A stretch of 64,000 nt of DNA from Bacteroidales bacterium (GTDB lineage Bacteria > Bacteroidota > Bacteroidia > Bacteroidales > UBA932): assembly GCA_017428945.1 (NCBI GenBank), contig JAFRPW010000034.1, positions 1 through 64,000 of the forward strand, written 5' to 3'. The notes under the pieces are model-generated. The model was not told where the DNA came from. It searched no databases and was given only the letters and a program-made list of their open reading frames with translations. Position 1 is the first letter of the stretch; every line of letters starts with the position of its first letter. A program made the translations under genes and the position numbers. Shown here piece by piece: positions 33,689 to 59,607 of this stretch.

Positions 33689-33704
33689 ACTAATACGATT
33701 TAGC
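33689..33704. promoter_or_regulatory. LacI-type operator candidate 1
   Basis: ACTAATACGATTTAGC, an imperfect palindrome centred on CG with the ATTTAGC arm shared by three other sites. It lies between the -7 element and the ATG of the minus-strand GH172 gene, where bound repressor would block transcription. Confidence 0.6.
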
Positions 33705-33706
33705 TA

Positions 33707-33745: not shown

Positions 33746-33776
33746 GATATTCGTGGAAATCAATTCGCCTTTCAAT

Positions 33777-34883
33777 ATGAGAAAATTTGTTCGCTTCGTG
33801 CTGTTTTGCAATGTCGTCACCATTCTCTGTCTGTTCTCCTGCTCCAACCAGGAAACCGGTAAGGACACCAGCCAGGAAGCCAACAAGGAGGTGAGTGAGG
33901 AGACTACTCAGGAGACTCCGGGTGAAGAAATAGTACAGGAGGAGATCCCGACATATCATAACCCAGTGATGCCATACGATAGGCCTGACCCTACCATCTG
34001 GTACGACGGCAGTCGCTTTTATACCGTTTCCACCGGAATAGGATCCATTTTTGCCAGCAAAGATATGGTCAACTGGTACAAATTGAATTCTCTGCCTCTT
34101 AGCAGGACGGCGCAGGGGCAAGCCAAGGCCCAAGGTACCTATTTCTGGGCACCCGATGTAGTGAAAGTGGGCGAAAAGTGGATGCTATATCTTACATGCT
34201 ACAATTCTGCCAGCGATTGCGGAATAGCCGCTCTTTCCAGCGATAAGGCTTCCGGCCCATTTGAATGGGAAGGCATAATTACCCATAGCAAGACAACAGG
34301 TATAAAGGACACAATCGATCCGGAAGTGGTATACGACGAGGAAAGTTCGAAACTGTGGCTCTTCTTCGGCAGTATCGGCAGTATTCACCGCGTTCTGCTT
34401 GCCCCTGATGGACGAAGTATCGCTCCCGGCGCCGAATACATAAAGGTGGCGGGGCTCACCTATTCTCAGGACAAGTCCAGGGCAAAGGTTTTTGAAGGAT
34501 CATATCTTTACCGTCATGGTTCATATTGGTATCTTTTCGTCAGCTCGGGCAACTACGGCGATGCCTCCTACAGGATAAAGGTCGGACGCAGCGCCACACT
34601 TGAGGGAGAGTTTGTGGACAAAGATGGTAATAAGATGCTTGACGGGTACGCCAGTGAGATTCTGACCAGCGTCAGCAGTGATAAGTACTATGGACCTGGT
34701 CACAACGGCGAGATCTTCACTGACCTCAGGGGCCAGGAGTATATGTTCTATCATTGTCACGATTCTTCAACCGGTAATAATTCCCGATATATCTTCCTCC
34801 AGCGCATATTCTGGGATAGGGACGAATGGCCGTATTTTGAAGGCGGAAAGCCCGTTGGTGAAGATTATATGCCCAAATTTTAA
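33777..34883 (+). CDS. GH43-type glycosidase lipoprotein
   Basis: A 368-residue lipoprotein (Cys in LCLFSCSNQ) with a Glu/Thr-rich linker and a five-bladed beta-propeller. The GH43 acidic residues are visible: Asp in RPDPTIWYDG, Asp in DTIDPEVVYDE and Glu in KVFEGSYLYR. Members cleave alpha-L-arabinofuranosyl, beta-xylosyl or beta-D-galactofuranosyl bonds; the substrate here is not clear. It is followed after 20 bases by a GH2 enzyme. Confidence 0.87.
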   Translation: MRKFVRFVLFCNVVTILCLFSCSNQETGKDTSQEANKEVSEETTQETPGEEIVQEEIPTYHNPVMPYDRPDPTIWYDGSRFYTVSTGIGSIFASKDMVNWYKLNSLPLSRTAQGQAKAQGTYFWAPDVVKVGEKWMLYLTCYNSASDCGIAALSSDKASGPFEWEGIITHSKTTGIKDTIDPEVVYDEESSKLWLFFGSIGSIHRVLLAPDGRSIAPGAEYIKVAGLTYSQDKSRAKVFEGSYLYRHGSYWYLFVSSGNYGDASYRIKVGRSATLEGEFVDKDGNKMLDGYASEILTSVSSDKYYGPGHNGEIFTDLRGQEYMFYHCHDSSTGNNSRYIFLQRIFWDRDEWPYFEGGKPVGEDYMPKF

Positions 34884-34903: not shown

Positions 34904-36748
34904 ATGAAACTGATTACAAAAGTACTGGTCACAGTCGCAATGCTTGCGATTGGTTGTGCAGCCCGCGCGCTCCCGAGGGCGGAGTATCCCCGGCCGCAGT
35001 TCGAGAGGGCAAGTTGGATTAATCTCAATGGAGAATGGGATTACTCGTTGGACCTTGCGTGCACGGGTTGGGACCGCGGTCTGGCTTCGGGCAATTTCTC
35101 GGACGGGAAGATTAATGTGCCTTTTGCTCCCGAATGCAAACTCTCCGGAGTCGAATACAAGGAGTTTATTCCAAGCATATGGTACAAGAGAGAGATTTCA
35201 GTCCCTGCCGAGTGGGCCGGCCGCGACATAGTGCTCAATTTCGGGGCTGTGTATTACTGTTCGGAGGTTTATATCGACGGCAAATTCATCTGCCGGCACT
35301 TTGGCGGTTCCGATTCATATAGTGTCGATATCACGGATTTCGTGACTCCCGGCAGCACAAATACTCTGGTCGTCAACGCCACAAGCAATCTTCGTTCCAG
35401 GCAGCAGACTGCAGGTAAGCAGTCGCTCCGTGCCGGAAACTTCGAGTGTATGTACACCCGTACGACCGGAATCTGGCAGACCGTGTGGATGGAGGCCGTT
35501 GCGCCTCAGGGTCTTTCCAGAGTGAAAACGACCACGGATATCGACCGCTCGACCGTGAGTTTCCAGACCTGGTTCCGCGCTCCGGCGGCAACAAAACTCA
35601 ATGTCATGGTGTATGACGGCTCCAAGCTGGTGGCCAAACAGAGCGGAGCTGCGTCGAACGGTTCGGTTTTCACTATCTCGTTAAAAAAGGCGAAACTGTG
35701 GAGCCCTTCGAGTCCTTTCCTGTACGATGTTGTTTTCGAGGTGCTTGATGCCTCGGGAAAGGTGGTAGACAAGGTGAAATCTTATTTCGGAATGAGGAAG
35801 ATACATATCGAGGGAAATCGCATTTTTCTCAACAATCAGCCTTTCTACCAGCGTCTGGTCCTCGATCAGGGCTTCTATCCCGACGGAATATGGACCGCAC
35901 CTTCCGATGAGGCTCTCCGTCACGATATAGAGATGTCGATGGAGGTGGGTTTCAACGGTGCGCGTCTGCATCAGAAGGTATTTGAGGAGCGTTTCCATTA
36001 TTGGGCTGACAAACTGGGATATATTACCTGGGGAGAGTGCCCGAGCTGGGGTCTGGATTGCAATGATCCCATTGCCGCCCGCAATTATCTAAGCGAGTGG
36101 ACCAATGTGGTGACCCGCGATTTGAATCATCCTTCTATAGTCACCTGGACTCCCTTCAACGAGGAGTTCTGGCCTGACAACATACAATATCCCAGATTCA
36201 TTGCCGATGTCTACGACATAACCAAGAACATAGATCCCACCCGCCCGATTAATACTGTCAGCGGCGGGGTCATAATAAAGACCGACATCTGGGCCGTTCA
36301 CCACTACGAGCAGGATCCCGCACGGCTCAAGGAGATTATCTGGAACGACGGCAAATTGTTCCTCTACCGCGGAGAGCGTCAGCTCCTGTACCGTGGCAAT
36401 GTCGGCTTCAACCGTCCCGAACTGGATACTCCTTCCAATTTCCCCGAATACGACGGAAGCGCTCCATACATAGTGGATGAATTTGGCGGCATACGCTGTA
36501 TGGAGGTGAATCCTCCGGAAGACGGCGCCTGGGGATACGGATCGGCTCCCCAGACAAAAGAGGAGTTCTATACCCGCCTGGAAGGTCAGGTCCGTGCTCT
36601 GATTGAGCTAAGCGACAACGTTTGGGGATATTGCTACACACAGCTTACCGACGTCCAGCAGGAGCAGAACGGCATCTTCTACTTCGACCGCGGCGTTAAG
36701 TATGATTCTTCAAGGCTGAAAGCGATTTTCGGGATGCCCGTGCCTTGA
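34904..36748 (+). CDS. GH2 glycoside hydrolase
   Basis: A 614-residue exported enzyme. The N-terminal jelly roll (LNGEWDYSLDLACTGW), an Ig-like domain and a barrel follow the GH2 order. The acid/base Glu is in NHPSIVTWTPFNEEFW and the nucleophile Glu in YIVDEFGGI. It is shorter than LacZ, like beta-galactosidase/glucuronidase members of PULs. With GH43 it could remove side groups, for example galactosyl, from an arabinan-containing polymer; this is inference. Confidence 0.87.
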   Translation: MKLITKVLVTVAMLAIGCAARALPRAEYPRPQFERASWINLNGEWDYSLDLACTGWDRGLASGNFSDGKINVPFAPECKLSGVEYKEFIPSIWYKREISVPAEWAGRDIVLNFGAVYYCSEVYIDGKFICRHFGGSDSYSVDITDFVTPGSTNTLVVNATSNLRSRQQTAGKQSLRAGNFECMYTRTTGIWQTVWMEAVAPQGLSRVKTTTDIDRSTVSFQTWFRAPAATKLNVMVYDGSKLVAKQSGAASNGSVFTISLKKAKLWSPSSPFLYDVVFEVLDASGKVVDKVKSYFGMRKIHIEGNRIFLNNQPFYQRLVLDQGFYPDGIWTAPSDEALRHDIEMSMEVGFNGARLHQKVFEERFHYWADKLGYITWGECPSWGLDCNDPIAARNYLSEWTNVVTRDLNHPSIVTWTPFNEEFWPDNIQYPRFIADVYDITKNIDPTRPINTVSGGVIIKTDIWAVHHYEQDPARLKEIIWNDGKLFLYRGERQLLYRGNVGFNRPELDTPSNFPEYDGSAPYIVDEFGGIRCMEVNPPEDGAWGYGSAPQTKEEFYTRLEGQVRALIELSDNVWGYCYTQLTDVQQEQNGIFYFDRGVKYDSSRLKAIFGMPVP

Positions 36749-37148: not shown

Positions 37149-37164
37149 ATTAAAACGATTTAGC
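37149..37164. promoter_or_regulatory. LacI-type operator candidate 2 with -7 element
   Basis: ATTAAAACGATTTAGC, the same CGATTTAGC arm as the other sites, followed immediately by TATATTCG (37165-37172), one base off TAnnTTTG. It controls the kinase-isomerase pair by position. Confidence 0.55.
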
Positions 37165-37201: not shown

Positions 37202-38197
37202 ATGCATAAAAAACCCAGAATTCTGGTGGTTGGAAGCTTCATGATGGACCTGGTGGCATTGGCCGGCAGGGCTCCGGAGCTGGGAGAGACTGTAATTGGA
37301 TCAGGCTTCAGGACCGCTCCCGGCGGGAAAGGCGCCAACCAGGCTGTACAGGCTGCACTGCTGGGGGCCGTCACCCACATGGCAGGATGCGTAGGGGACG
37401 ATTCCTTCGGCAAGGAGATGGTAGGTGCACTGAACGCCTCCGGAGTTGATACCGGACACGTGAAAACAAGCCACGATCACCCCTCCGGAGTAGGGCACAT
37501 AGAGATTCAGTCCGGACCAACCGGCGTCCAGAACAGAATAATCGTCGTTCCCGGTGCAAACTATGACCTTAAACCGGCAGACCTGGGCTGGCTCAAAGAT
37601 GAGATAAAGTCCTATGACATTGTGATCATGCAGTTGGAGCTGGAAATGGGCACAACGGAATATGTGGCCAGGCTGGCCCACGATGCCGGCGTACCTGTAA
37701 TGCTGAATCCGGCCCCCGCGGCTCCCCTATCGGACGCTCTCCTGTCCAACGTCACCTTCCTTTCTCCAAATGAGACGGAAGCCGCCTTGCTTTCCGGCGT
37801 CAAGACGGACAGCGAAGGCAGACTCTCTGAAGATGCCCTCAAGGCGGCAGCCGCAGTTCTGATGGGCAAGGGCGTCACCAACGTTATCATTACCCTTGGA
37901 GACAAAGGCGCCGCCCTTTGTATGGAAGATGGAATCAAGGTGGTCCCCAGCGTAAAGATGACCGATGTAAAAGACCCCACAGCCGCAGGAGACTCCTTCA
38001 TAGGCGCTTTCTGTGCCGGTTATGCAGCGGGCCTTTCCATAGAAGACGCAATGAAGCTTGCTGTGAACGCGGCCGCCATAACCGTCTGCGGTTTCGGCGC
38101 AATTCCTTCCCTGCCCACACTGGACAAGGTTACTGAACTCATTAAGGAAAGAGGGACCGATGAACTCTTGCTCACAAAACTTGGGAATCTGCTATGA
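37202..38197 (+). CDS. PfkB-family sugar kinase, ribokinase type
   Basis: A 331-residue kinase. PfkB signatures are APGGKGANQAVQAALLGA near the N-terminus and DPTAAGDSFIGAFCAGYAAG with the catalytic Asp. It most resembles ribokinase, which makes aldopentose-5-phosphates. It overlaps the next gene by ATGA. Because that gene encodes an arabinose-5-phosphate isomerase, the expected reaction is D-arabinose (or D-ribose) to the 5-phosphate; specificity is inferred. Confidence 0.88.
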   Translation: MHKKPRILVVGSFMMDLVALAGRAPELGETVIGSGFRTAPGGKGANQAVQAALLGAVTHMAGCVGDDSFGKEMVGALNASGVDTGHVKTSHDHPSGVGHIEIQSGPTGVQNRIIVVPGANYDLKPADLGWLKDEIKSYDIVIMQLELEMGTTEYVARLAHDAGVPVMLNPAPAAPLSDALLSNVTFLSPNETEAALLSGVKTDSEGRLSEDALKAAAAVLMGKGVTNVIITLGDKGAALCMEDGIKVVPSVKMTDVKDPTAAGDSFIGAFCAGYAAGLSIEDAMKLAVNAAAITVCGFGAIPSLPTLDKVTELIKERGTDELLLTKLGNLL

Positions 38198-38808
38198 TAC
38201 AGGAAAAGAGCATGAAGGCCCTTGACGCCTTCCTTGATTCGGCCCAAAAGAGCTTCTCCTCCTTCGTGGACAGTATAGACCCCAAGCCCTGCCGGGAGGC
38301 CGCTCAGCTCATCCTGGACTCCCAGGCCAAGGGCGGCAGGATTCACGTTACCGGTATTGGTAAGCCCGGACACGTTGCGGCCTACGCAGCTTCTCTCCTG
38401 GCATCCACAGGCAATCCCGCCGTTTTCCTTCACGGAACGGAAGCCGTACACGGCTCCTGCGGACAGCTGGTAGGAGGCGATGTTGTCATAGCCATCTCCA
38501 ATTCCGGAGAGACCATGGAGCTCAAGTCTACCGTCAATGCCATTCACGCAAACGGATGCAAGGTAATAGCCGTAACAGGCAATCCAAACAGCTGGCTGGC
38601 AACACATTCTGAGTGCACACTCCTAGCCGGGGTAAAGGAAGAAGGCGGTCCACTGAACCGCGCCCCCCGCAATTCCGTTAATGCGGAAATGCTTATACTC
38701 CAGGCCCTCAGCGTCGTCCTTCAGGTGGAAAAAGACTGGAATCCGGAAAAGTATGTACGCTGCCACCCCGGTGGCAAACTTGGTGAAATCAGAGAGAATG
38801 AAAAATAA
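38194..38808 (+). CDS. Stand-alone SIS-domain D-arabinose-5-phosphate isomerase
   Basis: A 204-residue SIS protein like the N-terminal half of KdsD/GutQ, without CBS domains. All four residues important in E. coli KdsD have matches: Lys in GIGKPGH, Glu in ISNSGETME, Glu in VKEEGGP and His in CHPGGKLGE. The enzyme interconverts D-arabinose-5-P and D-ribulose-5-P. In LPS biosynthesis it runs toward arabinose-5-P; here, coupled to a ribokinase in a PUL, it probably runs the other way, feeding the pentose phosphate pathway. Confidence 0.85.
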   Translation: MIQEKSMKALDAFLDSAQKSFSSFVDSIDPKPCREAAQLILDSQAKGGRIHVTGIGKPGHVAAYAASLLASTGNPAVFLHGTEAVHGSCGQLVGGDVVIAISNSGETMELKSTVNAIHANGCKVIAVTGNPNSWLATHSECTLLAGVKEEGGPLNRAPRNSVNAEMLILQALSVVLQVEKDWNPEKYVRCHPGGKLGEIRENEK

Positions 38809-38841: not shown

Positions 38842-39861
38842 ATGAAAACCACTAAGACTCACGCATCCCTAAAAGACATTGCCAATTACGTAGGAGTATC
38901 CATCTCCCTTGTATCTTTCGTCCTCAACGACAAGGCCCGCCAGCACAGGGTGAGCGAGGAAATGGTCCGGAAAATCAAGGAAGCCGCGGAGAAACTGAAC
39001 TACCAGCCAAATATATTCGCAAAGAGCCTCCGTGAAGGGAAAAGCCATGTTATAGGCGTAGTACTGTCGGACATCTCAAACCCTTTCTTCTCCTCAATTG
39101 CCCGCTGCCTTGAAGACGAGGCGGAAAAATACGGCTATTCCGTCCTGTTCTCCAGCTCCGATGAAAACCGGGAAAGGTCTGAAAAGCAGATTGCCCACCT
39201 TATCAACAGGGGGGTTGACGGTCTTATCCTGGTCCCCTGCGAAAAATCCCAGAGCACGGTAAGGGCGGTCCTGGAGACGGGAAAGCCCCTGGTCCTTATC
39301 GACAGATATTTTCCCGATGTCCATACCAATTACGTATGTCTTAACAACAGGGAGATGAGCCGCCTGGCTACGTCAACTATCCTTGCATCGGGTTACAGCC
39401 ATCCCGGGACAATTGCTTACGACACAACGCTTCAGCACATGCTGGACAGAAGAAGCGGGTACAGGCAGGCCATGGAAGATGCCGGGAAGGCGGCCTTTGT
39501 AAGCGAAAGCCTTATAAGGGAGTGTGACTTGCACCAGTCCATCTCATCGGCCATAGACAAATTGCTGGCGGAGGGTGTGGACTCCCTGCTGTTCGCAACC
39601 AATAATATCGCTACGGAATCCCTTATGGTCATTAAGAATAAGGGTATCAACGTCCCTGGAGAGCTGGGTATCATAGGTTTTGACGGAGGCAGCGCCTTCG
39701 ACCTGTTCCAGGTACCTATATCTTATATACAGCAGCCCGTTGCCCTTATGGCACAAAAGACCGTGGAAATCATTATGGACGAAATCCTAGTTGGCCAGAG
39801 ACTTACCCACCAGATAGAAGTCCAGGGCACCCTTGTCATAAAAGAGTCTACAAAAAAGTAA
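38842..39861 (+). CDS. LacI-family transcription regulator
   Basis: A 339-residue regulator. HTH residues 9-29 (SLKDIANYVGVSISLVSFVL), hinge NYQPNIFAKSLREGKS, then a periplasmic-binding-protein-like sensor domain (VIGVVLSDISNPFFSSIARC, GVDGLILVP, GIIGFDGGSAFDLFQVPISY). It lies inside the PUL between the catabolic pair and the GH172 operon. Palindromes centred on CG or TTAA and ending in TTTAGC at four promoters around it are its likely operators. Effector may be D-arabinose or its phosphate. Confidence 0.92.
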   Translation: MKTTKTHASLKDIANYVGVSISLVSFVLNDKARQHRVSEEMVRKIKEAAEKLNYQPNIFAKSLREGKSHVIGVVLSDISNPFFSSIARCLEDEAEKYGYSVLFSSSDENRERSEKQIAHLINRGVDGLILVPCEKSQSTVRAVLETGKPLVLIDRYFPDVHTNYVCLNNREMSRLATSTILASGYSHPGTIAYDTTLQHMLDRRSGYRQAMEDAGKAAFVSESLIRECDLHQSISSAIDKLLAEGVDSLLFATNNIATESLMVIKNKGINVPGELGIIGFDGGSAFDLFQVPISYIQQPVALMAQKTVEIIMDEILVGQRLTHQIEVQGTLVIKESTKK

Positions 39862-39887: not shown

Positions 39888-39903
39888 GCTAAATTAATTT
39901 AGC
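39888..39903. promoter_or_regulatory. LacI-type operator candidate 3 (perfect palindrome)
   Basis: GCTAAATTAATTTAGC is a perfect 16-bp palindrome, followed by CATCTTTG (39903-39910), one base off the -7 consensus, upstream of the GH172-DUF4185 operon. Confidence 0.65.
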
Positions 39904-39963: not shown

Positions 39964-41124
39964 ATGAAAAAAGGAATCATCTTATCTGTCGTAGCCGTTT
40001 TCCTTGCGGTTACGGGTTCTTATGCTCAGAAATTTAACGGCTTGGACATGAATCTAGGTAACCTCTCCAGGTTGTCAGATGCCAAAACCCGTTCCATTTC
40101 CCCGGAGAATTTCACCGGTGAAAAGGGCAAAGGCGGCATGGCCCAGCCTTCCCTTCCTCCAACCCGCAACGTGAATAACGCCTCCTGGGCCGCAAGGGAC
40201 CTTGGAAAAACATGGAAGGTCAATCCTTACATTACCATCAACTCCGGCGAAACCGTCACAATTGCAGAGATGGAAGGCCCCGGCGCCATCCAGCACATCT
40301 GGATGACCCCCACCGGCGTCTGGCGCTGGACCATAATCAGGATATATTGGGACGATGAACCCACCCCCTCCGTCGAATGCCCTATCGCAGACTTCTTCTG
40401 CATGGGATGGAACGAATATTCTCCCCTGGTGTCCCTCCCCATCTGCGTCAATCCCGGAAGCGCCTTCAACAGCTACTGGCAGATGCCTTTCCGCAAGAAA
40501 TGCAAGATTACCATGGAGAACGTCAACGACAAGGATTCCATGAACCTTTACTATCAGATTGATTACACCCTCACTGAGGTCCCTGACGATGCAGCCTACT
40601 TCCACGCCCAGTTCAGAAGGACTCCCTACAATGAGACATCGGATTTCACAATCATTGACGGGATCAAGGGAAAAGGCCAGTACGTGGGTGTTTACGTTGC
40701 CTTTGGCGTCCACAACAACGGTTGGTGGGGCGAAGGTGAAATCAAGTTCTTCATCGACGGAGACAAGGATTATCCCACCATCTGCGCAACCGGCACGGAG
40801 GACTATTTCTGCGGCTCCTACAACTTCGACCGCAACGGCCGATTCACTGAGTTCACCACTCCTTATTCCGGCCTCTGCCAGGTAATCCGCCCGGACGGGA
40901 CCTATCGTTCCCAGGAAAGGTTCGGCATGTACCGCTGGCACATCGTAGACCCTATCCGCTTTGAAAAGAACCTGAAGGTTACCCTGCAGGATCTTGGCTG
41001 GATGCACGACGGCCGCTACCTCCCCCAGCACTCGGACATTGCCGCAACCGTGTTCTGGTACCAGACGGAGCCCCATGCCAAGTTCCCCAAATTCCCCACC
41101 TGGCGTGAACTGGAAGTCAACTGA
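39964..41124 (+). CDS. GH172 (DUF2961) family glycoside hydrolase
   Basis: A 386-residue exported enzyme (signal MKKGIILSVVAVFLAVTGSYA). Core motifs are EGPGAIQHIWMTPTG, PIADFFCMGWNEYSPL, NNGWWGEGEIKFFIDGD and CATGTEDYFCGSYNF with the conserved Glu. The length is the usual single-domain GH172 size. GH172 members release D-arabinofuranose from mycobacterial arabinan or D-fructofuranose from difructose anhydride. It is first of four genes with 2-base or overlapping spacing, two of which are DUF4185 enzymes. Confidence 0.9.
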   Translation: MKKGIILSVVAVFLAVTGSYAQKFNGLDMNLGNLSRLSDAKTRSISPENFTGEKGKGGMAQPSLPPTRNVNNASWAARDLGKTWKVNPYITINSGETVTIAEMEGPGAIQHIWMTPTGVWRWTIIRIYWDDEPTPSVECPIADFFCMGWNEYSPLVSLPICVNPGSAFNSYWQMPFRKKCKITMENVNDKDSMNLYYQIDYTLTEVPDDAAYFHAQFRRTPYNETSDFTIIDGIKGKGQYVGVYVAFGVHNNGWWGEGEIKFFIDGDKDYPTICATGTEDYFCGSYNFDRNGRFTEFTTPYSGLCQVIRPDGTYRSQERFGMYRWHIVDPIRFEKNLKVTLQDLGWMHDGRYLPQHSDIAATVFWYQTEPHAKFPKFPTWRELEVN

Positions 41125-41126: not shown

Positions 41127-42188
41127 ATGAATAGGTTATTCACGGCTCTGTGCTGCATCCTCTGCAGCACGGTTGCCTTTGCCCAGTATGAAATAGACGG
41201 CGTACGCCTTCAGCCTCCGGCGCAGGACGGCATCTGGGTGCGCCCGGCTGACGGCGTCCCCGCCCAGGCCATCTGGGGCTTCGCGGACGGAATACGGGTT
41301 GGCATAAACCCTCCCGGCCGTCCCCGCGGCCTGCTTGACATCTTCTGCCCGTACCTTGGGGACGGAGAGAGAAGTATTATCAACTACATCGCCATGGAAC
41401 CCATAGTTGCGGGAACACGCAACAGGGGTCTGTCGGAGCTGGAAAAAAGCTCCATCGACGGAGGGCAGGGCAAAGTATTCATAAGCAGCGACGTCCCCCA
41501 GAGGCCGTCGCAGTGGGACAAACTCCATCCGGCCCGCGGAACCGTTACCGTGGAGGACGGAAAACAAACCCTCACCGTCTGGATTTACTGCGAGCGTTTT
41601 GACAACGGTGCCGATGTCTACGTCCGCCTGCGCTTCATAGAGGACAACCCCTATCAGTTTGAACTCCAGGCCTTTGCCGGCACAGAATCGGCCCCTCTTG
41701 AATCTTTCATCCTAACCGCCACCATGGGCAACAAGATGAGGCTCAGGAAACTGTACACCGCCAATGAGGTCAAGCTCTCCACAGAAATCTGGCCGGACTA
41801 CAAGGACAAATGGTTCTCCCCCTATGACCGCACTCCTCTGCAGGGTATGATAAGGGACCGCAAAGGCGGCGCCTGGGCCTTTTCAGAGCCCTCCGAAACA
41901 CAGCAGGACTACATAAACGCCCAGTATGAGGATGGCACCTCCAACGGCTGGAAGTACAAAGGAAAAACCGCAACCCAGTACTGGTACGCTCCTGTTCCCC
42001 ACCCTGAGCTTCAGACTGTGGTTAACGGCCGTTACACCTACTGGGCCATATTCAAGAAGCTTCCCGGAGGCATCGCCTTTGAGAATTTCGAACTTGTGGA
42101 GCCCTTCCGCCAGGGCACCATCTACTACTTTGGAGTATCTCCTGAAAAGCCCGGCAAGCTCATTAAACAGATAAACAAGATCAAATGA
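41127..42188 (+). CDS. Exported protein of unknown family in the GH172/DUF4185 operon
   Basis: A 353-residue protein with a signal peptide (MNRLFTALCCILCSTVAFAQ). It is rich in beta strands and aromatic residues (DGIWVRPADGVPAQAIWGF, GKTATQYWYAPVPHPELQ). No family was recognised. It starts 2 bases after the GH172 gene and overlaps the first DUF4185 gene by ATGA. A debranching or glycan-processing role is possible. Confidence 0.65.
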   Translation: MNRLFTALCCILCSTVAFAQYEIDGVRLQPPAQDGIWVRPADGVPAQAIWGFADGIRVGINPPGRPRGLLDIFCPYLGDGERSIINYIAMEPIVAGTRNRGLSELEKSSIDGGQGKVFISSDVPQRPSQWDKLHPARGTVTVEDGKQTLTVWIYCERFDNGADVYVRLRFIEDNPYQFELQAFAGTESAPLESFILTATMGNKMRLRKLYTANEVKLSTEIWPDYKDKWFSPYDRTPLQGMIRDRKGGAWAFSEPSETQQDYINAQYEDGTSNGWKYKGKTATQYWYAPVPHPELQTVVNGRYTYWAIFKKLPGGIAFENFELVEPFRQGTIYYFGVSPEKPGKLIKQINKIK

Positions 42189-45223: not shown

Positions 45224-45239
45224 GCTATAACGATTTAGC
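45224..45239. promoter_or_regulatory. LacI-type operator candidate 4, upstream of susC
   Basis: GCTATAACGATTTAGC, two bases short of a perfect CG-centred palindrome, 33 bases before the susC ATG. The rest of the gap 45046-45272 holds no gene; a clear -33/-7 pair was not found. Confidence 0.6.
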
Positions 45240-48374: not shown

Positions 48375-48393
48375 TGCAAAAATGACTGAAAGT

Positions 48394-51455: not shown

Positions 51456-52889
51456 ATGGCAGAAAAATCAAGACTTGTTCCCAAAGGCATAGTATGGCCG
51501 TTCATACTTCTGACCTGCCTGTTCTTCGCATGGGCCGTGCCCAACAACCTCACGGACACCATGCTGGCGGCATTTAAGAGGATAATGAGCCTGTCAGACT
51601 CCAAGACGGCCTGGATTCAGGTGGTTTGCTACCTGCTGGGATATGGCTGCTTTGCCATCCCGGGAGCAATCTTCATCAAGAAGTATTCGTACAAGTCCGG
51701 CGTTCTGCTGGGCCTTGCCCTGTATTCCATGGGCACCTTCCTCTTCTATCCCGCGTCAAGGGTGGCTATCGGCAACAATGCCGTCGGCTATATTATGTTC
51801 CTGTTTGCCATACTGGTCCTGTTTGCCGGCCTCTCTATCCTTGAGACGGCAACCAATTCATACGTCCTGGCGCTTGGACCGGAAGACACGGCCACAAGGC
51901 GCCTGAACTTTGCCCAGTCCTTCAATCCCTTCGGTGCAATTACCGGTGTTGTAATATCACAGATATTCATTCTTTCTCAGCTGAACACCCTCACGGCGTC
52001 ACAGCGCGCAAACCTCAGCGAGGCCGACCTTGCCGCCATTCAGATGGGAGAGCTCAACGCGGTTACAACTACCTATATTATACTTGGCGTCATTATGCTG
52101 GTCATCCTGGCCGCAATATTCTTCACAAAGATGCCAAGCCTCAAGGAAGAAGGCGGTCCCATGAACCTCAAGGGCTCCGGAAAGCGCCTTCTCAAGAACA
52201 AGAATTACGTTTGGGGCGTGGTTGCCCAGTTCTTCGACATCGGCGCCCAGATTGCCGTGTGGTCCTATACCATCCGCTATGCCATGCATAACCTTCATTT
52301 TGACGATGTGATTGCATCGCTTGGCCCGGACGCTTCTACGGATTCCATAATCTCCGCACTCCGCGGAGTGGAGCCCATAGCTGCAGGATTCTACAACGTA
52401 TGCGACGCTGTTGGACTGGACGTCCTTCTTCCCCGAACCGCAGAGCAGGCCGGTGCAACTTACTACATTATGGCACTTATCCTCTTTGTGATAATGCGTT
52501 TTGTATGCACCGGACTCATGAAATGGATAAATCCCCGAAAGCTTCTTTCCATCCTTGCCGGTCTTGGCATACTGTTCTGCCTTGGCACCGTATTCGGCAC
52601 CGGCTTCTTTGGAGTATACTGCCTGATGTGTATAAGCGGATGCCTTTCCCTTATGTTCCCTACCATATACGGTTTGGGATGTAAGGGATTGGGTGAAGAC
52701 ACCAAGCTTGGTGGCTCCGGAATGGTCATGGCCATTGCCGGTGCCAGCGTGCTTACCCAGATAGAGGGAATTCTTTCGGACCAGTCCGGAAGCATTGCCC
52801 TTGCATACATAGTCCCGGCAATTGCGTTTGCCATTATCTTCTACTATGCGGCCGTCTTCTGCCGCAAGCAGGAAAAACTAAATGCCTAA
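51456..52889 (+). CDS. FucP-type major facilitator sugar:H+ symporter
   Basis: A 477-residue protein with about twelve membrane helices. FucP-like features are the N-terminal FILLTCLFFAWAVPNNLTD, AGLSILETATNSYVLALGP and LNFAQSFNPFGAITGV. E. coli FucP carries L-fucose and also D-arabinose, so the family suits uptake of D-arabinose released in the periplasm. It lies in the susC operon, which supports the substrate being the monosaccharide released by the locus. Confidence 0.9.
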   Translation: MAEKSRLVPKGIVWPFILLTCLFFAWAVPNNLTDTMLAAFKRIMSLSDSKTAWIQVVCYLLGYGCFAIPGAIFIKKYSYKSGVLLGLALYSMGTFLFYPASRVAIGNNAVGYIMFLFAILVLFAGLSILETATNSYVLALGPEDTATRRLNFAQSFNPFGAITGVVISQIFILSQLNTLTASQRANLSEADLAAIQMGELNAVTTTYIILGVIMLVILAAIFFTKMPSLKEEGGPMNLKGSGKRLLKNKNYVWGVVAQFFDIGAQIAVWSYTIRYAMHNLHFDDVIASLGPDASTDSIISALRGVEPIAAGFYNVCDAVGLDVLLPRTAEQAGATYYIMALILFVIMRFVCTGLMKWINPRKLLSILAGLGILFCLGTVFGTGFFGVYCLMCISGCLSLMFPTIYGLGCKGLGEDTKLGGSGMVMAIAGASVLTQIEGILSDQSGSIALAYIVPAIAFAIIFYYAAVFCRKQEKLNA

Positions 52890-52918: not shown

Positions 52919-55102
52919 ATGAAAACATTCAGATTTTTCTTAATTGCGCTTGCAGCAGTAACACTGTATGCTTGCCAGGATCCCGAGGATCCGGAAAACA
53001 ACACTCCCGCAACGGCAGAAGACATGAGCTTTGAAGCCACTCTCACTGCCATAGCCGGAGGCCCTGAAGCCGTTTTTGCAAAGGGTGACGGCATTACCGT
53101 GTTCGACACCAAGGCCGGTAACGCATTTACCGCAGAAGGCGCCGGCGCCACCGCCACCTTCAAGGGTAAAGCCATCAAGTCCGAAGCTTATGCCGCCGTT
53201 TATCCTGCACTTCAGAACACCGCCCGCTACAGCGGCAAGGCCGGTGCATCCATCCCTTCAAACCAGACCGCAGTCCAGAACGCCGCTCCCGCAGGTGGAA
53301 TTGCCGTAGCTTACACAACAGACAACAAACTTCCCTTCAAGTTTGTAACCGCCCTCCTGAAGGTTAACGTCCCTGCAGACCAGAAGATTCTTGCAGTTGA
53401 AGTGAACGCCATTGGCGGAGAGATTCTTGCCGGCGATGCAAAGATATCCCTGGATGCCAATGCAGCGGTAGAAGTAACCGGTTCATCCAAGGTTGTCCTC
53501 AGCGCCAATTCCGCACTTGGCGGTGTCTACTATGCCGTAGTTGCTCCTGCAACCCTTGCCAGCGGTTATGAAATCACCGTTACTGATGTGCTCAGCCGCC
53601 GCGCCACCATCACGGTTGAAGGCCAGGCTAAGATTGAAGCCGGCAAGACCTTTGAGCTTGCCGCCCTCAACAACATCCAGTGGAGTGACGACGTTGAGAA
53701 TCCCAACCCCACCGCCGTTCCCGGCGCAGCCCTCTTCAAGGTTTCCTTCAACAGGGCGGAATTCAACATGATTTCCGACGGAGGCTTCGAGAACCTGAAT
53801 CCTGACAACATCAAGGCCCTTACCAACTGGCAGTTACCCAACGAGGCCTCTGCAGTGGAAGGACATACCGGCAACACTGCCATAAAGATTGACAATCCCA
53901 CTCCCGGCATATGGTTCCAGCTGGCACAGACATTGAGCCTTAGGATGGGACGCACTTACCAGTATTCTTCTTATATCAAGCGTACCACACCTCACATGTA
54001 CAACGGTGTTGTGAGCTATCTCAGCGGCTTCCGCAATGAGATTAACGGTCCAGACACCTATGTTGAGGGCGCAGACTGGACACTCTATGAATATGAATTC
54101 GTACAGCCTCAGAACGACAAGTGGGGAGACATGTTCATGGGTCTTTGGGGAGATGCGGGCGCTTACGCCATTTTGGATGACGTAAAGATTGTTCCTAAGG
54201 ATTATGCAGGAACTTCCATTGAAACCGCCTCAACCGCAGCCATTGAAACCTTCAACAACAAGACCTTCAGCGAGATTAATGCCGCATCTAAGGTCATCGC
54301 ATTCAAGGGCTTTGACGGAAAGTATGTGGTTGCATTCGCCGGCATCACGGTAGACAATGCTGAATATGGCAACGGCGTAGCCATTGCAGAATCTGCATCT
54401 CTGGCAGACGGCCTCAGCATCACAAAACTCATCAAGTCCGGAATCAAGCCCGTCTCCTTCCTGGAGCCCGCCGAGGATGAACTTGCAATAGTTCCCAACG
54501 CCGGTTTCGCCAAGGACGGCAAACTGTATATCCACTACTATGCCCTTGTTGGCGTAAATCCTGAAAACCCGGATGTATGGACAGTTTCCCGCGCCGGCTT
54601 CGTAGTATCTGCAGACGGCGGTGCAACCTGGACCAAGTGCGAAGGCGAATGGCTGTCCGGTGAAAGGTGGGTTGAGGCCTCCCTGTTTGAGAAAGACGGC
54701 GTCCTCTATATGGCCGGTTCCTATGCAGGACGCAACATCGGCTGGTTCAACACCTTCGGATTCGCACGCTGCGAACTTACCAAGGACTTCACAGATCCTA
54801 CCCAGTGGGAGTATCTCACTCCTCAGGGCTGGGTTGACACGGAAGTAGGTGACCTGCCGGTTGTCCTCATGGGCTCCAACGGTGAACCTGCACTTGTTTA
54901 CAACGCCAAATGGGGGCGCTGGATGCTCATCTACCGTGGCATACTGGGCGGCCTGGTCTTCCGTGATGCAGACAGTATTGACGGCGACTGGTCCGGCGAG
55001 AAGCTTCTTGTGGCCGATCCGGAAGGCGGCAAACTGCTTGCTCCTTCAGTACTTGAAGTCACGGCCGACGGTGACCTTATCCTCATGGCAACACGTGAAT
55101 AG
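52919..55102 (+). CDS. Surface lipoprotein: fimbrillin-like domain, CBM-like domain and DUF4185-like propeller
   Basis: A 727-residue lipoprotein (Cys in VTLYACQDPEDPEN, acidic after Cys). Residues 35-255 are fimbrillin-like (EAVFAKGDGITVFDTKAG, LPFKFVTALLKVNV). Residues 275-425 start SDGGFENLN and look like a jelly-roll carbohydrate-binding module. Residues 440-727 resemble the later blades of the DUF4185 propeller (AGFVVSADGGATWTKC, SLFEKDGVLYMAGSYAG, ALVYNAKWGRWMLIYRG), but the GTDLG and FGDTFG blocks are absent. It may bind glycan rather than cleave it. Confidence 0.7.
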   Translation: MKTFRFFLIALAAVTLYACQDPEDPENNTPATAEDMSFEATLTAIAGGPEAVFAKGDGITVFDTKAGNAFTAEGAGATATFKGKAIKSEAYAAVYPALQNTARYSGKAGASIPSNQTAVQNAAPAGGIAVAYTTDNKLPFKFVTALLKVNVPADQKILAVEVNAIGGEILAGDAKISLDANAAVEVTGSSKVVLSANSALGGVYYAVVAPATLASGYEITVTDVLSRRATITVEGQAKIEAGKTFELAALNNIQWSDDVENPNPTAVPGAALFKVSFNRAEFNMISDGGFENLNPDNIKALTNWQLPNEASAVEGHTGNTAIKIDNPTPGIWFQLAQTLSLRMGRTYQYSSYIKRTTPHMYNGVVSYLSGFRNEINGPDTYVEGADWTLYEYEFVQPQNDKWGDMFMGLWGDAGAYAILDDVKIVPKDYAGTSIETASTAAIETFNNKTFSEINAASKVIAFKGFDGKYVVAFAGITVDNAEYGNGVAIAESASLADGLSITKLIKSGIKPVSFLEPAEDELAIVPNAGFAKDGKLYIHYYALVGVNPENPDVWTVSRAGFVVSADGGATWTKCEGEWLSGERWVEASLFEKDGVLYMAGSYAGRNIGWFNTFGFARCELTKDFTDPTQWEYLTPQGWVDTEVGDLPVVLMGSNGEPALVYNAKWGRWMLIYRGILGGLVFRDADSIDGDWSGEKLLVADPEGGKLLAPSVLEVTADGDLILMATRE

Positions 55103-55120
55103 TTATTGCTGGTTTGTACC

Positions 55121-55158
55121 GGAGGTGCCATGCCACCAGCGTGGCACCTCCATTTTTT
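55121..55158 (+). terminator. Rho-independent terminator inside the PUL
   Basis: GGAGGTGCCA (55121-55130) and TGGCACCTCC (55142-55151) form a perfect 10-bp stem followed by ATTTTTTAA. It separates the susC operon from the GH116/GH97 pair, which starts only 10 bases later. Confidence 0.82.
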
Positions 55159-55168
55159 AATTAATAAT

Positions 55169-57652
55169 ATGCGTAAGCCCATACTCGCCGTCGTCGTAGC
55201 CGTGTTCGTTGCGGTCTGCGGCATTGCAAGACCCCACCACCGCAATTACGTTGGGGACAGCAAGGACCACATAGCCTATCCTATAGGCGGGCTTGGTTCC
55301 GGAATGTTCTGCATAGAGGGCTCCGGAGCCATTTCCAATATGTCCGTGCATCATTTCCCGGACCTTTTCCACGAGCCCTGCACTTATGCCGCCATTTACG
55401 TAAACGGCAAGGCAAAGGTCTTGGAAAGCGCCGTGCCGGGGTACAAGATATTCGGACGGAACGAGGGCGGAATGGGAGTAGGCGGCACCACCTGGGGCCT
55501 TCCCCGCTATGCAGAAGGCTCTTTCTCCGCAAGGTTCCCCTTTGCATCGGTGCGCCTGTTTGACAAGGACATGCCCATAAGCGTGGAGCTCAAGGCGTGG
55601 AACCCTTTCATCCCCGGCGATGAGGACGACTCCGGCCTTCCCGTCGCAGGCCTTGAATACACATTCACAAACGTTAGCAAGGACGATGTAGAATGCATCT
55701 TCTCCTTCAACACCCGGAACTTCATGTTCCGTTCAGAGCATGCAAGAAGCGCCGTTGAGGCCTTCCCGGGAGGCTTCGTCCTCCTTCAGGAACCTCCACA
55801 GAACCAGCCGGACATAGAAGGCAAGTTTGCCATCTGGACAACGGCAGAAAACGTTTCCGTGGACCACTGCATGTTCCGCGGAGGGTGGTTCGACCCTCTT
55901 ACAATGTCCTGGAACAAAGTAGCCTCCGGCGACACCACCTCCGTGGCTCCTGCCGAAGGCGCTCCCGGAGCGGCCCTTTATGTGCCGCTAACAATAAAGG
56001 CCGGTGAGCAGAAGACCGTGTGTCTGAGATTTGCGTGGTACGTCCCCCACTCAGTGCACCGCATTGGTCTCCTGGCTCAAAATGACAATGACCGCGGTCC
56101 GGTCTACAATGCCGACGACTGGAAAGACGTCCCGGACCGTTACGAACCCTATTACAGCCGCCGATTCTCCGGCGTGGAGGATGTTGCGGCATATTGGAAC
56201 GACAATTACGAAAGGCTGAAAGCGAAAACTTCGCTCTTTACGAAGACGTTTTACGACACCACCCTCCCGGAGGAAGTAGTGGAAGCGGTATCGGCCAATC
56301 TCACCATATTGAAATCCCCCACCGTAATGCGCCAGCACGACGGGCGTTTCTGGGTGTGGGAAGGTAGCGGAGACCGTTGGGGCAGTTGCCACGGCTCCTG
56401 CACACATGTATGGAATTATGCCCAGGCAATTCCACACCTCTTCCCGCGCATGGAGCGTTCCCTGAGAGAAACTGAATTCCTTGTGGACCAGGCGCTTGAC
56501 GGGCATCAGGTATTCCGTGCAAATATCCCCATCAGCCCCGTCCACCATGACTTCCATTCCGCCTGCGACGGCCAGCTTGGCGGAATACTCAAGGTCTACA
56601 GGGACTGGAGGATAAGCGGCAACACAGAATGGATTAAGAAACTGTATCCCCGCATCAAGGAGAGCATTGATTACTGCATCCGTACCTGGGACCCACGTCA
56701 TACCGGAGCCCTTGAAGAGCCCCATCACAACACGTACGACATTGAGTTCTGGGGGCCTGACGGCATGTGCACCAGTTTATATGCCGGGGCGCTTAACAGT
56801 TTCGTGAAAATAAGCAAGGCCCTCAAAAAGCCTTGCAAGGAATATGAGGCGCTTTTGGAGAAATCCGGAAAATATTTGACGGAACAGCTCTGGAACGGGG
56901 AATACTTCTACCAGAAAGTGCGCTGGAAGGACCTCAGTGCAGGCAATCCGGCAACGGCCCAGATGTTCCATGCCGGCTATTCCCCTGAGGCACTTGCAAT
57001 ACTTGAAAAGGAAGGCCCCAAATACCAGTATGGCACCGGATGCATATCGGACGGCGTAATTGGCTGCTGGCTCTCCCTGGTGTGCGGTCTGGACGAACCC
57101 ATCGGCAAAGATTATGTGCGGTCACACCTGGAATCGATCTACAAGTACAACCTTAAACACGACCTTTCAGACCACGCAAATCCCCAGCGTCCGGGATATG
57201 CGGTAGGGCATGACGGCGGCCTTCTCCTTTGCACCTGGCCCCACGGCGGCAAGCCGGAACTTCCCTTCGTGTATAGTGACGAAGTCTGGACAGGTATCGA
57301 GTATCAGGTTGCCGCACACCTCATTTTTGAAGGCGAAGTTGAAAAGGGCCTGGACATTGTCCGCACCTGCCGTGAGCGCTACAACAGCGGCATGCGCAAT
57401 CCCTTCAACGAATATGAGTGTGGCTCGTGGTACGCCCGTGCCCTCTCCAGCTACAGCCTCATTCAGGCTCTCACCGGTGTGCGCTATGACGCCGTTGACA
57501 AAACCCTTACAATAGACTCCCGCATAGGCAACGACTTCCGCAGCTTCCTTTCCACCGAAACCGGCTACGGCACCGTCGGCCTCCGTTCCGGCCAACCCTT
57601 CCTAGAAGTCGTCCACGGCACCATCCCCGTAAAGAAATACATAGTCAAATGA
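55169..57652 (+). CDS. GH116-type glycoside hydrolase
   Basis: An 827-residue exported enzyme (MRKPILAVVVAVFVAVCGIA). The N-terminal beta domain has YPIGGLGSGMFCIEGSGA. The (alpha/alpha)6 barrel has EPHHNTYDIEFWGPDGMC, containing the candidate nucleophile, and CISDGVIGCW, containing the acid/base Asp. GH116 includes beta-glucosidases, xylosidases and glucosylceramidases. ATG 55169 was chosen because the upstream frame runs through the terminator. It overlaps the second GH97 by ATGA. Confidence 0.87.
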   Translation: MRKPILAVVVAVFVAVCGIARPHHRNYVGDSKDHIAYPIGGLGSGMFCIEGSGAISNMSVHHFPDLFHEPCTYAAIYVNGKAKVLESAVPGYKIFGRNEGGMGVGGTTWGLPRYAEGSFSARFPFASVRLFDKDMPISVELKAWNPFIPGDEDDSGLPVAGLEYTFTNVSKDDVECIFSFNTRNFMFRSEHARSAVEAFPGGFVLLQEPPQNQPDIEGKFAIWTTAENVSVDHCMFRGGWFDPLTMSWNKVASGDTTSVAPAEGAPGAALYVPLTIKAGEQKTVCLRFAWYVPHSVHRIGLLAQNDNDRGPVYNADDWKDVPDRYEPYYSRRFSGVEDVAAYWNDNYERLKAKTSLFTKTFYDTTLPEEVVEAVSANLTILKSPTVMRQHDGRFWVWEGSGDRWGSCHGSCTHVWNYAQAIPHLFPRMERSLRETEFLVDQALDGHQVFRANIPISPVHHDFHSACDGQLGGILKVYRDWRISGNTEWIKKLYPRIKESIDYCIRTWDPRHTGALEEPHHNTYDIEFWGPDGMCTSLYAGALNSFVKISKALKKPCKEYEALLEKSGKYLTEQLWNGEYFYQKVRWKDLSAGNPATAQMFHAGYSPEALAILEKEGPKYQYGTGCISDGVIGCWLSLVCGLDEPIGKDYVRSHLESIYKYNLKHDLSDHANPQRPGYAVGHDGGLLLCTWPHGGKPELPFVYSDEVWTGIEYQVAAHLIFEGEVEKGLDIVRTCRERYNSGMRNPFNEYECGSWYARALSSYSLIQALTGVRYDAVDKTLTIDSRIGNDFRSFLSTETGYGTVGLRSGQPFLEVVHGTIPVKKYIVK

Positions 57653-59607
57653 GAAAAATAGCAGTACTTGTTTTATTGGCCATTAGCGTAACGCCTTTGT
57701 TTGCGCATAGAGTGTCATCACCTTCCGGGAAGATAACTATTGAAGTTAAGGTGCAGTCAAAGAGGCCGGTGTATTCCATTTCTTATGCCGGGAAGACAGT
57801 TATTGCGCCATCGGAGGTAGGGTTTGACTTTGCCGAGGGATATTTTGGCGAAGGAGTTGCCATGGGGAAAGTCTCCAGAAGGAAAGTCAATGACGATTAT
57901 AACCTTCCGGTTGGCAAGACCTCCCATGTGCATGCCGTGAGCAATGAGATGACCGTTTCGCTGGTGGAGAAAACCGGCTTGAAGCGCCGCGTTAACATGG
58001 TTGTGAGAGCGTTTGACGATGCCGTTGCCTTCCGTTATGAATTCCCGGAGGGGAATAACCAGCTTGCCATTAAGAACGAAGTACTGGACATTAACCCTGC
58101 CGGGGATCCCATGTTCACAGCGCTGCCGTTACCGGCCTTTATCAATACCCACGAGGGCCGGTATACCATAGGAAAGATTGCTGCACTGGAAGAGGGCAAG
58201 ATAATGGATATGCCTATTACCATGGAGTTTCCTGGGCATATAATAATGTCCGTCACGGAAGCCAACCTTAGGGATTATTCGGGAATGTATCTGGTAAGGA
58301 AGGGCAATAAACTGACTTCACGCCTTTCGCCAAGGATGGACCATCCGGAACTGAGCGTTATTGCAAACCGCCCCCACAAGACTCCATGGAGGGTATTCTT
58401 TGTGAGTAATAAGGCCGGAGACATCATTGCCTCAAACGTGCTTACAACCCTTTGCGATCCCTGCACGGCGGAAGATTTATCCTGGCTGAAGCCCGGAAAG
58501 ACAACTTTCCCCTGGTGGAACGACACCTGCGTCCCGGACACCACCTTCCAGGCCGGAAACAACTTCCTTACGGCCAAGTACTACATTGACTTTGCCGCCG
58601 ACAGCGGCCTTGACTACCATTCTGTATACGGCTATGGAGACATGCCTTGGTACTTTGACGATGGCCCCAGCTTTGGCTGGGCCGGACCCAACGCGGACCT
58701 CACCAGGCCGGTTGGCCAGCTAGACTTCCCCGCAGTTTGCCGTTATGCCCACCACCGTGGGGTGGATATTCACGTTTGGCTTAACTGGCGCGCCCTGTAC
58801 AAGGATATTGACCGCGTTTTTGACAAGTTCAATGAATGGGGCGTCAAAGGGATGATGGTGGACTTTATGGACAGGGACGACCAGGAGATGATCCTGATTC
58901 AGGAGGACATCCTCCGGAAAGCGATGGAGCACAAGCTCTTCATACAGTTCCATGGGGCAAGCAAGCCCTCCGGCCTGGTCCGCACATATCCAAATGAATT
59001 CACCCGCGAGGGCACCCTCAACTATGAAGTCTACAAGTGGGACGGCCTCACGCTTGGCCCGGACCATGACATCAGCATGCCATTCACCAGAATGGTTGCC
59101 GGCGCCGCGGACTATCACCTTGGCGGGTTCCGCGCCGTTACCACGGAGGAATACAAGCCGCGTTTCCACCGGCCGCTTGTAACCTGCACCCGTGCCCATA
59201 TGCTTGGCATGTACATCGTCCTTGAAAGTTACCTCCAAATGGTGTGTGACGACCCCGAGGCCTACCGTAACCAGCCCGGATTCAAGTTCCTCTGCGGAAT
59301 CCCCACCAATTGGGACGAAACGGTGGTTCCTGCGGCGGAGGTAAACAAATACGCGGTCATTGCGCGCCGCCACGGAAAGGACTGGTTCATCGGTGCTATA
59401 AACAACAGCGAAGCAAGGACGCTGGAAATACCGCTGGACTTCCTTGGAAACGGTATCTTCACAGCGGAAATATGCAGCGACGCCCCTGATTCCGCAGAGA
59501 ATCCCAACCATATCCTTGAGTCCAGCATGGACGTTCAGGGCGGAACACTTACCATAAGCCTTGCCTCAGGCGGAGGCTTTGCGGCTAAAATAAGCCCTGC
59601 CAAGTGA
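57649..59607 (+). CDS. GH97 glycoside hydrolase, retaining type
   Basis: A 652-residue exported enzyme (signal MRKIAVLVLLAISVTPLFA). It starts SSPSGKITIEVKV and has KTTFPWWNDTC and HVWLNWRALYKD. At the HE position of inverting GH97s it reads FHGASKPSG (Gly), and VDFMDRDDQ offers an Asp nucleophile, as in the retaining alpha-galactosidase subgroup. It is the last intact gene of the PUL; a truncated frame is coupled to its stop. Confidence 0.88.
   Translation: MRKIAVLVLLAISVTPLFAHRVSSPSGKITIEVKVQSKRPVYSISYAGKTVIAPSEVGFDFAEGYFGEGVAMGKVSRRKVNDDYNLPVGKTSHVHAVSNEMTVSLVEKTGLKRRVNMVVRAFDDAVAFRYEFPEGNNQLAIKNEVLDINPAGDPMFTALPLPAFINTHEGRYTIGKIAALEEGKIMDMPITMEFPGHIIMSVTEANLRDYSGMYLVRKGNKLTSRLSPRMDHPELSVIANRPHKTPWRVFFVSNKAGDIIASNVLTTLCDPCTAEDLSWLKPGKTTFPWWNDTCVPDTTFQAGNNFLTAKYYIDFAADSGLDYHSVYGYGDMPWYFDDGPSFGWAGPNADLTRPVGQLDFPAVCRYAHHRGVDIHVWLNWRALYKDIDRVFDKFNEWGVKGMMVDFMDRDDQEMILIQEDILRKAMEHKLFIQFHGASKPSGLVRTYPNEFTREGTLNYEVYKWDGLTLGPDHDISMPFTRMVAGAADYHLGGFRAVTTEEYKPRFHRPLVTCTRAHMLGMYIVLESYLQMVCDDPEAYRNQPGFKFLCGIPTNWDETVVPAAEVNKYAVIARRHGKDWFIGAINNSEARTLEIPLDFLGNGIFTAEICSDAPDSAENPNHILESSMDVQGGTLTISLASGGGFAAKISPAK

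Follow-up and report, generated by a model that had tools for sequence, protein, structure and literature searches.

A predicted LacI-controlled D-arabinan utilization locus with a putative kinase-first D-arabinose module in a Bacteroidales bacterium

Gene organization of the locus

Cell walls of the mycobacterial type contain D-arabinan, an unusual polysaccharide. We analyzed a 64,000-nucleotide stretch of DNA from a Bacteroidales bacterium with relatives among rumen Bacteroidales (assembly GCA_017428945.1, contig JAFRPW010000034.1, positions 1 to 64,000; hereafter, the window). It carries a candidate D-arabinan utilization locus, in which a gene pair for a PfkB/ribokinase-like kinase and a single-domain SIS protein may convert D-arabinose to D-ribulose 5-phosphate. 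As an earlier note on this DNA had described, GH172, DUF4185/GH183, SusC/SusD, FucP, PfkB, SIS, GH43, GH2, GH116 and GH97 genes occur together, and the set was confirmed in the window by profile search. The genes for the SusC-like TonB-dependent receptor (45273–48374, plus strand) and the SusD-like lipoprotein (48382–50232, plus strand) stand beside co-directional genes of carbohydrate-active enzymes, the arrangement by which a polysaccharide utilization locus (PUL) of Bacteroidota is recognized. In a search of the window's own 2.6 Mb genome, the three DUF4185 matches of the locus were the sole ones. Because DUF4185 is confined to the locus in this genome and relatives have the gene set as well, the set is not a product of chance. 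Beyond the named families, the locus contains a LacI-family regulator (38842–39861, plus strand; Pfam LacI and Peripla_BP), a DUF6786 lipoprotein and a conserved unnamed protein.

To judge from gene spacing, the plus strand appears to carry four transcription units: GH43-GH2; PfkB-SIS-LacI; GH172-unnamed-GH183-GH183; and SusC-SusD-DUF6786-FucP-DUF4185 fusion-GH116-GH97, in which the intergenic gaps are 29 bp or less. A GH172 gene on the minus strand (31557–33686) diverges from the rest at the left edge. The earlier note counted two GH172 copies, and both were found; however, this second copy lies outside the interval that it had given (33689–59607).

Residues of the kinase

The kinase (37202–38197, plus strand; TIGR02152, 297.2 bits) is a predicted D-arabinose 5-kinase, and its gene overlaps the SIS gene by 4 bp. 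In E. coli ribokinase, the ribose ligands are Asn14, Asp16, Gly42, Lys43, Asn46, Glu143 and Asp255, and the A98G substitution raised the kcat for D-arabinose 15-fold and lowered the KM 1.5-fold, although the KM was still 310 mM (PMC9604405). A Thermus ribokinase was reported to show about twice the background activity on D-arabinose (PMC5199209); thus, the parent family offers a weak activity to build on. When aligned to E. coli rbsK, the window kinase naturally has Gly98, the substitution engineered in that enzyme, and Met14, so that the Asn14 ribose ligand is not retained. All six kinases of the PfkB-SIS type combine Gly98 with Met or Ile14 and keep the remaining ribose ligands. In contrast, Ala98 and Asn14 were present in 30 of the 31 comparators, namely E. 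coli rbsK, the kinase L006 of the window's own genome and 29 further profile matches given as loci. The sole exception (L138 in genome G360, 1489–2424, minus strand) has Gly98 and Leu14, lacks Asp16 and adjoins URO-D and esterase-like genes; it is possibly another ribokinase of altered specificity. Because L006 has the usual residues, the window kinase, as a second such kinase in the own genome, is free for another substrate. Against a profile of the six kinases, the window kinase scored 653.9 bits and the next match in the order 256.2 bits. Gly98 gives indirect support for the predicted D-arabinose 5-kinase activity, the ATP-dependent formation of D-arabinose 5-phosphate.

The SIS protein and Kdo synthesis

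The SIS protein (38194–38808, plus strand), a predicted D-arabinose-5-phosphate isomerase, matched TIGR00393 with 129.6 bits, only at model positions 1–151 of 268. It retains Lys59, His88, Glu111, Glu152 and His193 of E. coli KdsD, which we take to be functional positions of the SIS active site. No KpsF/KdsD match other than its gene was found in the own genome. Enzymes of this family are known from lipopolysaccharide synthesis, where 3-deoxy-D-manno-octulosonate (Kdo) is made and the Kdo-8-phosphate synthase KdsA is their partner. KdsA was over the cut-off in 34 of 59 genomes of the family, and in none of the four members of the window's genus (G000, G008, G368 and G445) that are among these 59. 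This result suggests that the genus has a Kdo-free lipopolysaccharide. Because KdsA is not over the cut-off in these four genomes of the genus, we rejected a Kdo housekeeping role of the SIS protein. Against a profile of six proteins, the window SIS protein scored 418.8 bits, whereas the best other score in 393 genomes of the order, among the matches listed, was 142.9 bits; these other matches were mostly in frames of about 320–375 amino acids. Single-domain relatives with 34–36% identity occur in G060 and G337.

Partition between the kinase-SIS pair and FucI

A scan of named genomes gave eight loci, of which L013–L016 share the window's locus. These four are from Bacteroidales bacterium metagenome-assembled genomes (MAGs) or isolates, two of them named for rumen or abomasum. 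The PfkB and SIS genes are adjacent in all five loci (the window and L013–L016); the pair precedes the LacI gene in the window and L016, and lies between SusD and DUF6786 in L013–L015. FucI, the only aldose isomerase searched for, was found in none of the five genomes.

In G450 (L017), G452 (L019) and G230, FucI was over the cut-off, and the only TIGR00393 matches, found in frames of 499–602 amino acids, did not fall in the SIS half of the model. In G450, FucI is located between SusD and DUF6786, the slot of PfkB-SIS in L013–L015, and a ribulokinase gene stands on the other side of FucP. The locus of G230 is more distant (its SusC is only 26% identical), and there FucI adjoins LacI and a GH172 homologue. 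One genome, G451 (L018), has both FucI and the pair. Its FucI gene adjoins genes with the best NCBIfam names rhamnulokinase (below the cut-off) and rhamnulose-1-phosphate aldolase, and therefore probably belongs to a deoxysugar operon. The pair of G451 (L083, 7824–9443) is on a contig other than that of its D-arabinan locus and adjoins glutamine synthetase III, glutamate synthase and DJ-1/PfpI genes (nitrogen assimilation). In total, the 11 genomes examined comprise five of the kinase type, three of the FucI type, one with both and two unclassified (G060 and G337). G008, from the window's genus, has FucI and no DUF4185 match. We propose that the kinase-first pair takes the place of the fucose isomerase/ribulokinase module that related loci carry.

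Predicted D-arabinan-cleaving enzymes

Judged by its genes, the D-arabinan gene set is of a kind already known: D-arabinan loci with GH172, GH183 and GH116 are described in Dysgonomonas gadei and Microbacterium (PMC10115798, PMC10509167). The closest solved relatives of the plus-strand GH172, the GH116 and the first GH183 protein are the Microbacterium D-arabinan enzymes, and the catalytic residues are retained.

In the GH183 enzyme EndoMA1, the nucleophile is Asp33 and the acid/base is Asp51; Glu243 completes a set of which mutation nearly abolished activity, according to the published account. The first GH183 endo-D-arabinanase candidate (42185–43627, plus strand), the one covered by our comparison with solved structures, matched EndoMA1 with 192 bits and has Asp181, Asp199 and Glu391 at the catalytic positions. 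The second candidate (43627–45045, plus strand; Pfam, 278.3 bits) is 52% identical to the first and has Asp175, Asp193 and Glu384 there. The earlier note listed two such proteins and one fusion. All three were found; however, the fusion lacks the catalytic dyad and is probably not a third GH183 enzyme. This CBM4_9 and DUF4185 protein (52919–55102, plus strand) gave a weak DUF4185 match (84.5 bits, profile positions 51–296 of 309). Ser and Gly replace both catalytic Asp residues when the domain alone is aligned, with the same result in three alignment modes, and on this ground we rejected a third catalytic GH183 in the locus. Among four homologues, the nucleophile Asp is missing in three and the acid/base Asp in one. 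The protein is probably a surface glycan-binding protein.

The plus-strand GH172 (39964–41124), a candidate exo-alpha-D-arabinofuranosidase, scored 382.6 bits to ExoMA1, an exo-alpha-D-arabinofuranosidase, and 150.2 bits to a difructose dianhydride enzyme (7v1v). Because the score to ExoMA1 is far higher, the fructan-type alternative raised in the earlier note is weakened. We rejected a fructan substrate on these scores together with the absence of GH32 among the locus genes scanned with Pfam. Glu257 and Glu279 align with conserved glutamates of ExoMA1 and the 7v1v enzyme; the two catalytic glutamates of DgGH172c are given as E233 and E254 in the account of that enzyme. In the minus-strand GH172 (DUF2961; 709 amino acids; Pfam, 192.2 bits), a divergent copy, the glutamates of the WWGEG and GTGTED motifs line up with ExoMA1, to which it scored only 71.8 bits; this value and a score of 70.9 bits are too close to tell the two specificities apart. 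The protein has 81% matches in L013–L015. In the G449 stretch, this GH172, GH43 and GH2 have no close match, only a 25% GH2 homologue.

The GH116 protein (55106–57652, plus strand), which probably starts at the ATG at 55169, matched the exo-beta-D-arabinofuranosidase ExoMA2 with 365.6 bits, and the next solved chain gave 58.5 bits. In ExoMA2, Glu431 and Asp557 are catalytic, and His446 and Arg483 are described as the key difference in arabinofuranose recognition (PMC10509167). The window protein retains the catalytic pair as Glu419 and Asp545 and the recognition pair as His434 and Arg471; in this mapping, an offset of 4 between the numbering of the paper and that of the chain was derived by us. 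GH116 is therefore a candidate exo-beta-D-arabinofuranosidase (subfamily 4) and not a decoration enzyme. The assignment of GH116 to galactan or decorations in the earlier note is not supported. A galactan role had also been given to GH43 (33753–34883, plus strand; Pfam, 153.7 bits) and is unsupported, the nearest solved relatives being endo-alpha-1,5-L-arabinanases. GH2 (34904–36748, plus strand) was assigned by Pfam. The nearest solved relatives of GH97 (57649–59607, plus strand) are alpha-galactosidases. A second GH97 gene (26426–28411) is embedded among clustered genes of the lysine-biosynthesis type and genes for IMP dehydrogenase and GMP synthase.

Binding, import and accessory proteins

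A script pattern found lipobox-like motifs in both GH183 enzymes (Cys20 in the first, Cys15 in the second), SusD, DUF6786 and the 709-amino-acid GH172 (Cys25); its match in GH2 looks spurious. The starts of the DUF4185 fusion and GH43 are lipoprotein-like by eye, though missed by the pattern. Signal-like N-termini were seen by eye in the plus-strand GH172, which has no lipobox, and in GH116, GH97 and the unnamed protein.

E. coli FucP carries D-arabinose. The FucP-type sugar:H+ symporter of the window (51456–52889, plus strand) matched TIGR00885 with 407.8 bits (cut-off, 280.4) and the solved FucP with 255.2 bits; in the latter alignment, Asp46 and Glu135, which are presumably essential, are conserved. 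FucP is 90–91% identical to that of the window over its full length in G446, L015 and L016, and 75% identical in G450 and L019. Because FucP is conserved across the kinase-type and FucI-type loci, both probably import the same sugar. In both types, the DUF6786 lipoprotein (50250–51449, plus strand; Pfam, 487.7 bits) adjoins FucP (the window, L013–L017, L019 and L085). The best fold matches of its structure model (mean predicted local distance difference test score [pLDDT], 65.1) were galactose-mutarotase-like (E value, 8.7e-8; template modeling score, 0.49 by target) and stood among unrelated beta proteins. This weak fold match suggests, as a lead only, a D-arabinose mutarotase.

The unnamed secreted-looking protein (41127–42188, plus strand) lies between GH172 and GH183 and had no Pfam or NCBIfam match at an E value of 0.001. 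It is 44–72% identical to proteins of four relatives, and the 44% homologue adjoins GH183 and GH116 in G230. Its structure model (mean pLDDT, 45.4) was too poor for use. It possibly represents a new enzyme or binding family. Three relatives have CotH-domain proteins within or next to their D-arabinan loci (L075, 6953–8896; L079, 2332–4017; L081, 6624–8240), and none was seen among the locus genes of the window. The FucI-type locus of G450 encodes, a few genes from GH116, a protein that weakly matched GH32-N and GH43 (L082, 13172–14842).

Downstream of the locus are an HNH endonuclease gene with a weak NUMOD4 match (60444–60941) and a plus-strand frame for an adenosine-deaminase relative (61082–62344). 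A longer minus-strand frame (61055–62377) has no Pfam match and is probably a shadow frame.

Operator-like sites

A looser comparison of promoters suggested the operator pattern GCTAAAACGATTTAGC, which we searched with up to three mismatches. The window contained eight strand-wise matches at five places, all between genes of the locus (one overlaps a gene end by 5 bp), as compared with a mean of 0.29 and a largest value of 3 in 100 dinucleotide shuffles. These LacI-type palindromic sites stand between the divergent GH172 and GH43 genes (33689–33704, ACTAATACGATTTAGC), 37 bp before the kinase gene (37149–37164, ATTAAAACGATTTAGC), before the GH172 operon (39888–39903, GCTAAATTAATTTAGC) and twice before SusC: a distal site that reaches 5 bp into the end of the second GH183 gene (45041–45056, GGTAAAATGTTTTAGC) and a proximal site 33 bp from SusC (45224–45239, GCTATAACGATTTAGC). 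With the symmetric pattern at two or fewer mismatches, mononucleotide shuffles gave 0.125 sites per window as against the five of the window, all of which have two or fewer. Strict CG-centred palindromes were absent from the locus promoters.

In G449, operator-like sites precede PfkB, GH172 and SusC (two). In G446 and L015, they precede GH172 and SusC (two) and stand between GH172 and GH43, and G446 has one more before another SusC. Where the pair is relocated into the SusC operon, as in G446-type loci, sites still precede that operon. Of the two sites in G450, one separates SusC from LacI and the other falls within the LacI frame, and in G060, a site with three mismatches is 52 bp from the LacI gene. 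The LacI regulator may bind these sites.

Proposed pathway and alternatives

The computation established gene content, residue conservation, module partition and the repeated operator-like sites, and its searches found no fucI, no KdsA over the cut-off and no other KpsF/KdsD-type gene; all activities and locations, LacI binding and the direction of flux are inferred. In the proposed pathway, the two surface GH183 lipoproteins would cut D-arabinan, and SusD and the DUF4185/CBM lipoprotein without the catalytic dyad would bind the polymer. SusC would import oligosaccharides, periplasmic GH172 (alpha) and GH116 (beta) would release D-arabinose, and FucP would carry it to the cytoplasm. There, the ribokinase-derived kinase would form D-arabinose 5-phosphate, and the single-domain KdsD-like isomerase would convert this to D-ribulose 5-phosphate, which enters the pentose phosphate pathway. 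Several lines of sequence evidence support this order of uptake, phosphorylation and isomerization, which the earlier note had proposed. We consider it probable that the locus is a LacI-controlled D-arabinan PUL with a predicted kinase-first D-arabinose module. We also lean toward the wider proposal of a dedicated natural kinase-first D-arabinose pathway, in which a Gly98-evolved ribokinase and an arabinose-5-phosphate isomerase freed from Kdo synthesis swap with the fucose isomerase/ribulokinase module in related Bacteroidales D-arabinan loci.

Several points weigh against this pathway. Both proteins are below the curated cut-offs (299.65 bits for the kinase profile and 203.7 bits for the SIS profile). 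Because the KM of the A98G ribokinase is still 310 mM, Gly98 by itself is not enough for an efficient enzyme, and without Asn14 the substrate could be a different sugar. The L138 kinase shares Gly98 and a non-Asn14 residue, yet sits among unrelated genes. The six kinases represent about four lineages, three of them being near-identical; because of this, and because G450 and G452 look closely related, the partition rests on few independent cases. DUF4185 matches occur in 26 of the 393 genomes of the order (13 over the cut-off), and four of these 26 (G000, which is the own genome, G230, G337 and G060) are within the 11 examined. G060 and G337 each have a single GH183 gene and a different SIS gene; FucI is missing in G060 and present in G337, where both it and the KpsF-type SIS gene lie away from the GH183 gene. 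The own genome is 96.8% complete, and MAGs may miss genes. As for the operator-like sites, the count is partly circular because the pattern was derived from these same promoters; therefore, the independent support is the recurrence in relatives. With the symmetric pattern at three or fewer mismatches, mononucleotide shuffles gave 2.9 sites per window, and no site was found in the locus of G230, in L018 or in the contig of the G451 pair.

Among the alternatives, the one that fares best, and that we regard as unlikely, keeps the D-arabinan locus but assigns a different substrate (ribose, a ketose or a decoration sugar) to the kinase and SIS protein, with D-arabinose handled by another isomerase elsewhere. 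It is consistent with the scores under both NCBIfam cut-offs, the replaced ribose ligand Asn14 and an isomerase search confined to FucI; however, PfkB-SIS and FucI replace each other in loci that are otherwise related, and D-arabinose is consistent with Gly98, as is its 5-phosphate with the KdsD residues. It is very improbable that the SIS protein is an ordinary KdsD for Kdo synthesis that stands in the locus by happenstance. Although it belongs to the KpsF/KdsD family, with conserved residues, and is the only such match of its genome, KdsA was not over the cut-off there or in three other genomes of the genus, its gene and the kinase gene overlap, with an operator-like site ahead of them, and its score is far from those of the order's other isomerases listed. 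We give hardly any credence to a fructan or difructose-anhydride locus: the 7v1v enzyme is a GH172 relative, but the plus-strand GH172 is far closer to ExoMA1, GH183 is present, GH116 has both residues that recognize D-arabinofuranose, and GH32 is missing among the locus genes scanned. Just as slight is the chance of anabolic use, with the pair running in reverse or supplying arabinose 5-phosphate for a D-arabinose-containing surface glycan, since the arabinose-5-phosphate isomerase reaction is reversible but operator-like sites are common to the pair, the secreted hydrolases and SusC, and no glycosyltransferase was found among the scanned locus genes.

If the kinase-first pathway is true, it would be a second natural D-arabinose route, and an isomerase family familiar from lipopolysaccharide synthesis would gain a function in catabolism. 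The kinase would be a candidate enzyme for D-arabinose 5-phosphate, which is described as used in cascades for arabinoside drugs (PMC9604405). The loci form a matched pair with which to study why one catabolic module takes the place of another. They also suggest that uncultured Bacteroidales, including some from ruminants, break down D-arabinan, and they correct the choice of proteins to assay on mycobacterial-type arabinan.

Comparison with known systems

Limited open-access literature searches of titles and abstract starts gave no precedent for a D-arabinose 5-kinase or a catabolic arabinose-5-phosphate route, which is no proof of absence from print. The locus is of a known type, and the apparently new part is the kinase-first catabolic pair. 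PUL42 of D. gadei is likewise a Bacteroidota D-arabinan locus with GH172 and GH183 (PMC10115798), and a putative GH116 is mentioned for it (PMC10509167). Compared with PUL42 by description and not by DNA, the window locus has a kinase and an arabinose-5-phosphate isomerase, and no fucI was found. The Microbacterium arabinogalactanolyticum cluster encodes EndoMA1, ExoMA1 and ExoMA2, the closest solved relatives of the window enzymes, and likewise has a putative isomerase and kinase; the passages on them name no family, so that the order of action is not comparable (PMC10509167). That cluster differs in its ATP-binding cassette transporter and intracellular exo-enzymes, as described in the same source.

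The window kinase is of the same family as the A98G E. coli ribokinase (PMC9604405) and has Gly98 naturally. It differs from E. coli ribokinase in that Asn14 is replaced by Met or Ile in the kinases of the pair, and in that its gene has an isomerase gene as its partner within a D-arabinan locus. With KdsD, KpsF and GutQ, the SIS protein has five KdsD positions in common. In contrast to them, it has no CBS half (which is also absent in the G060 and G337 proteins) and no KdsA partner over the cut-off, and it has HGSCG and RAPRNS in place of their HGDLG and LAPTSS.

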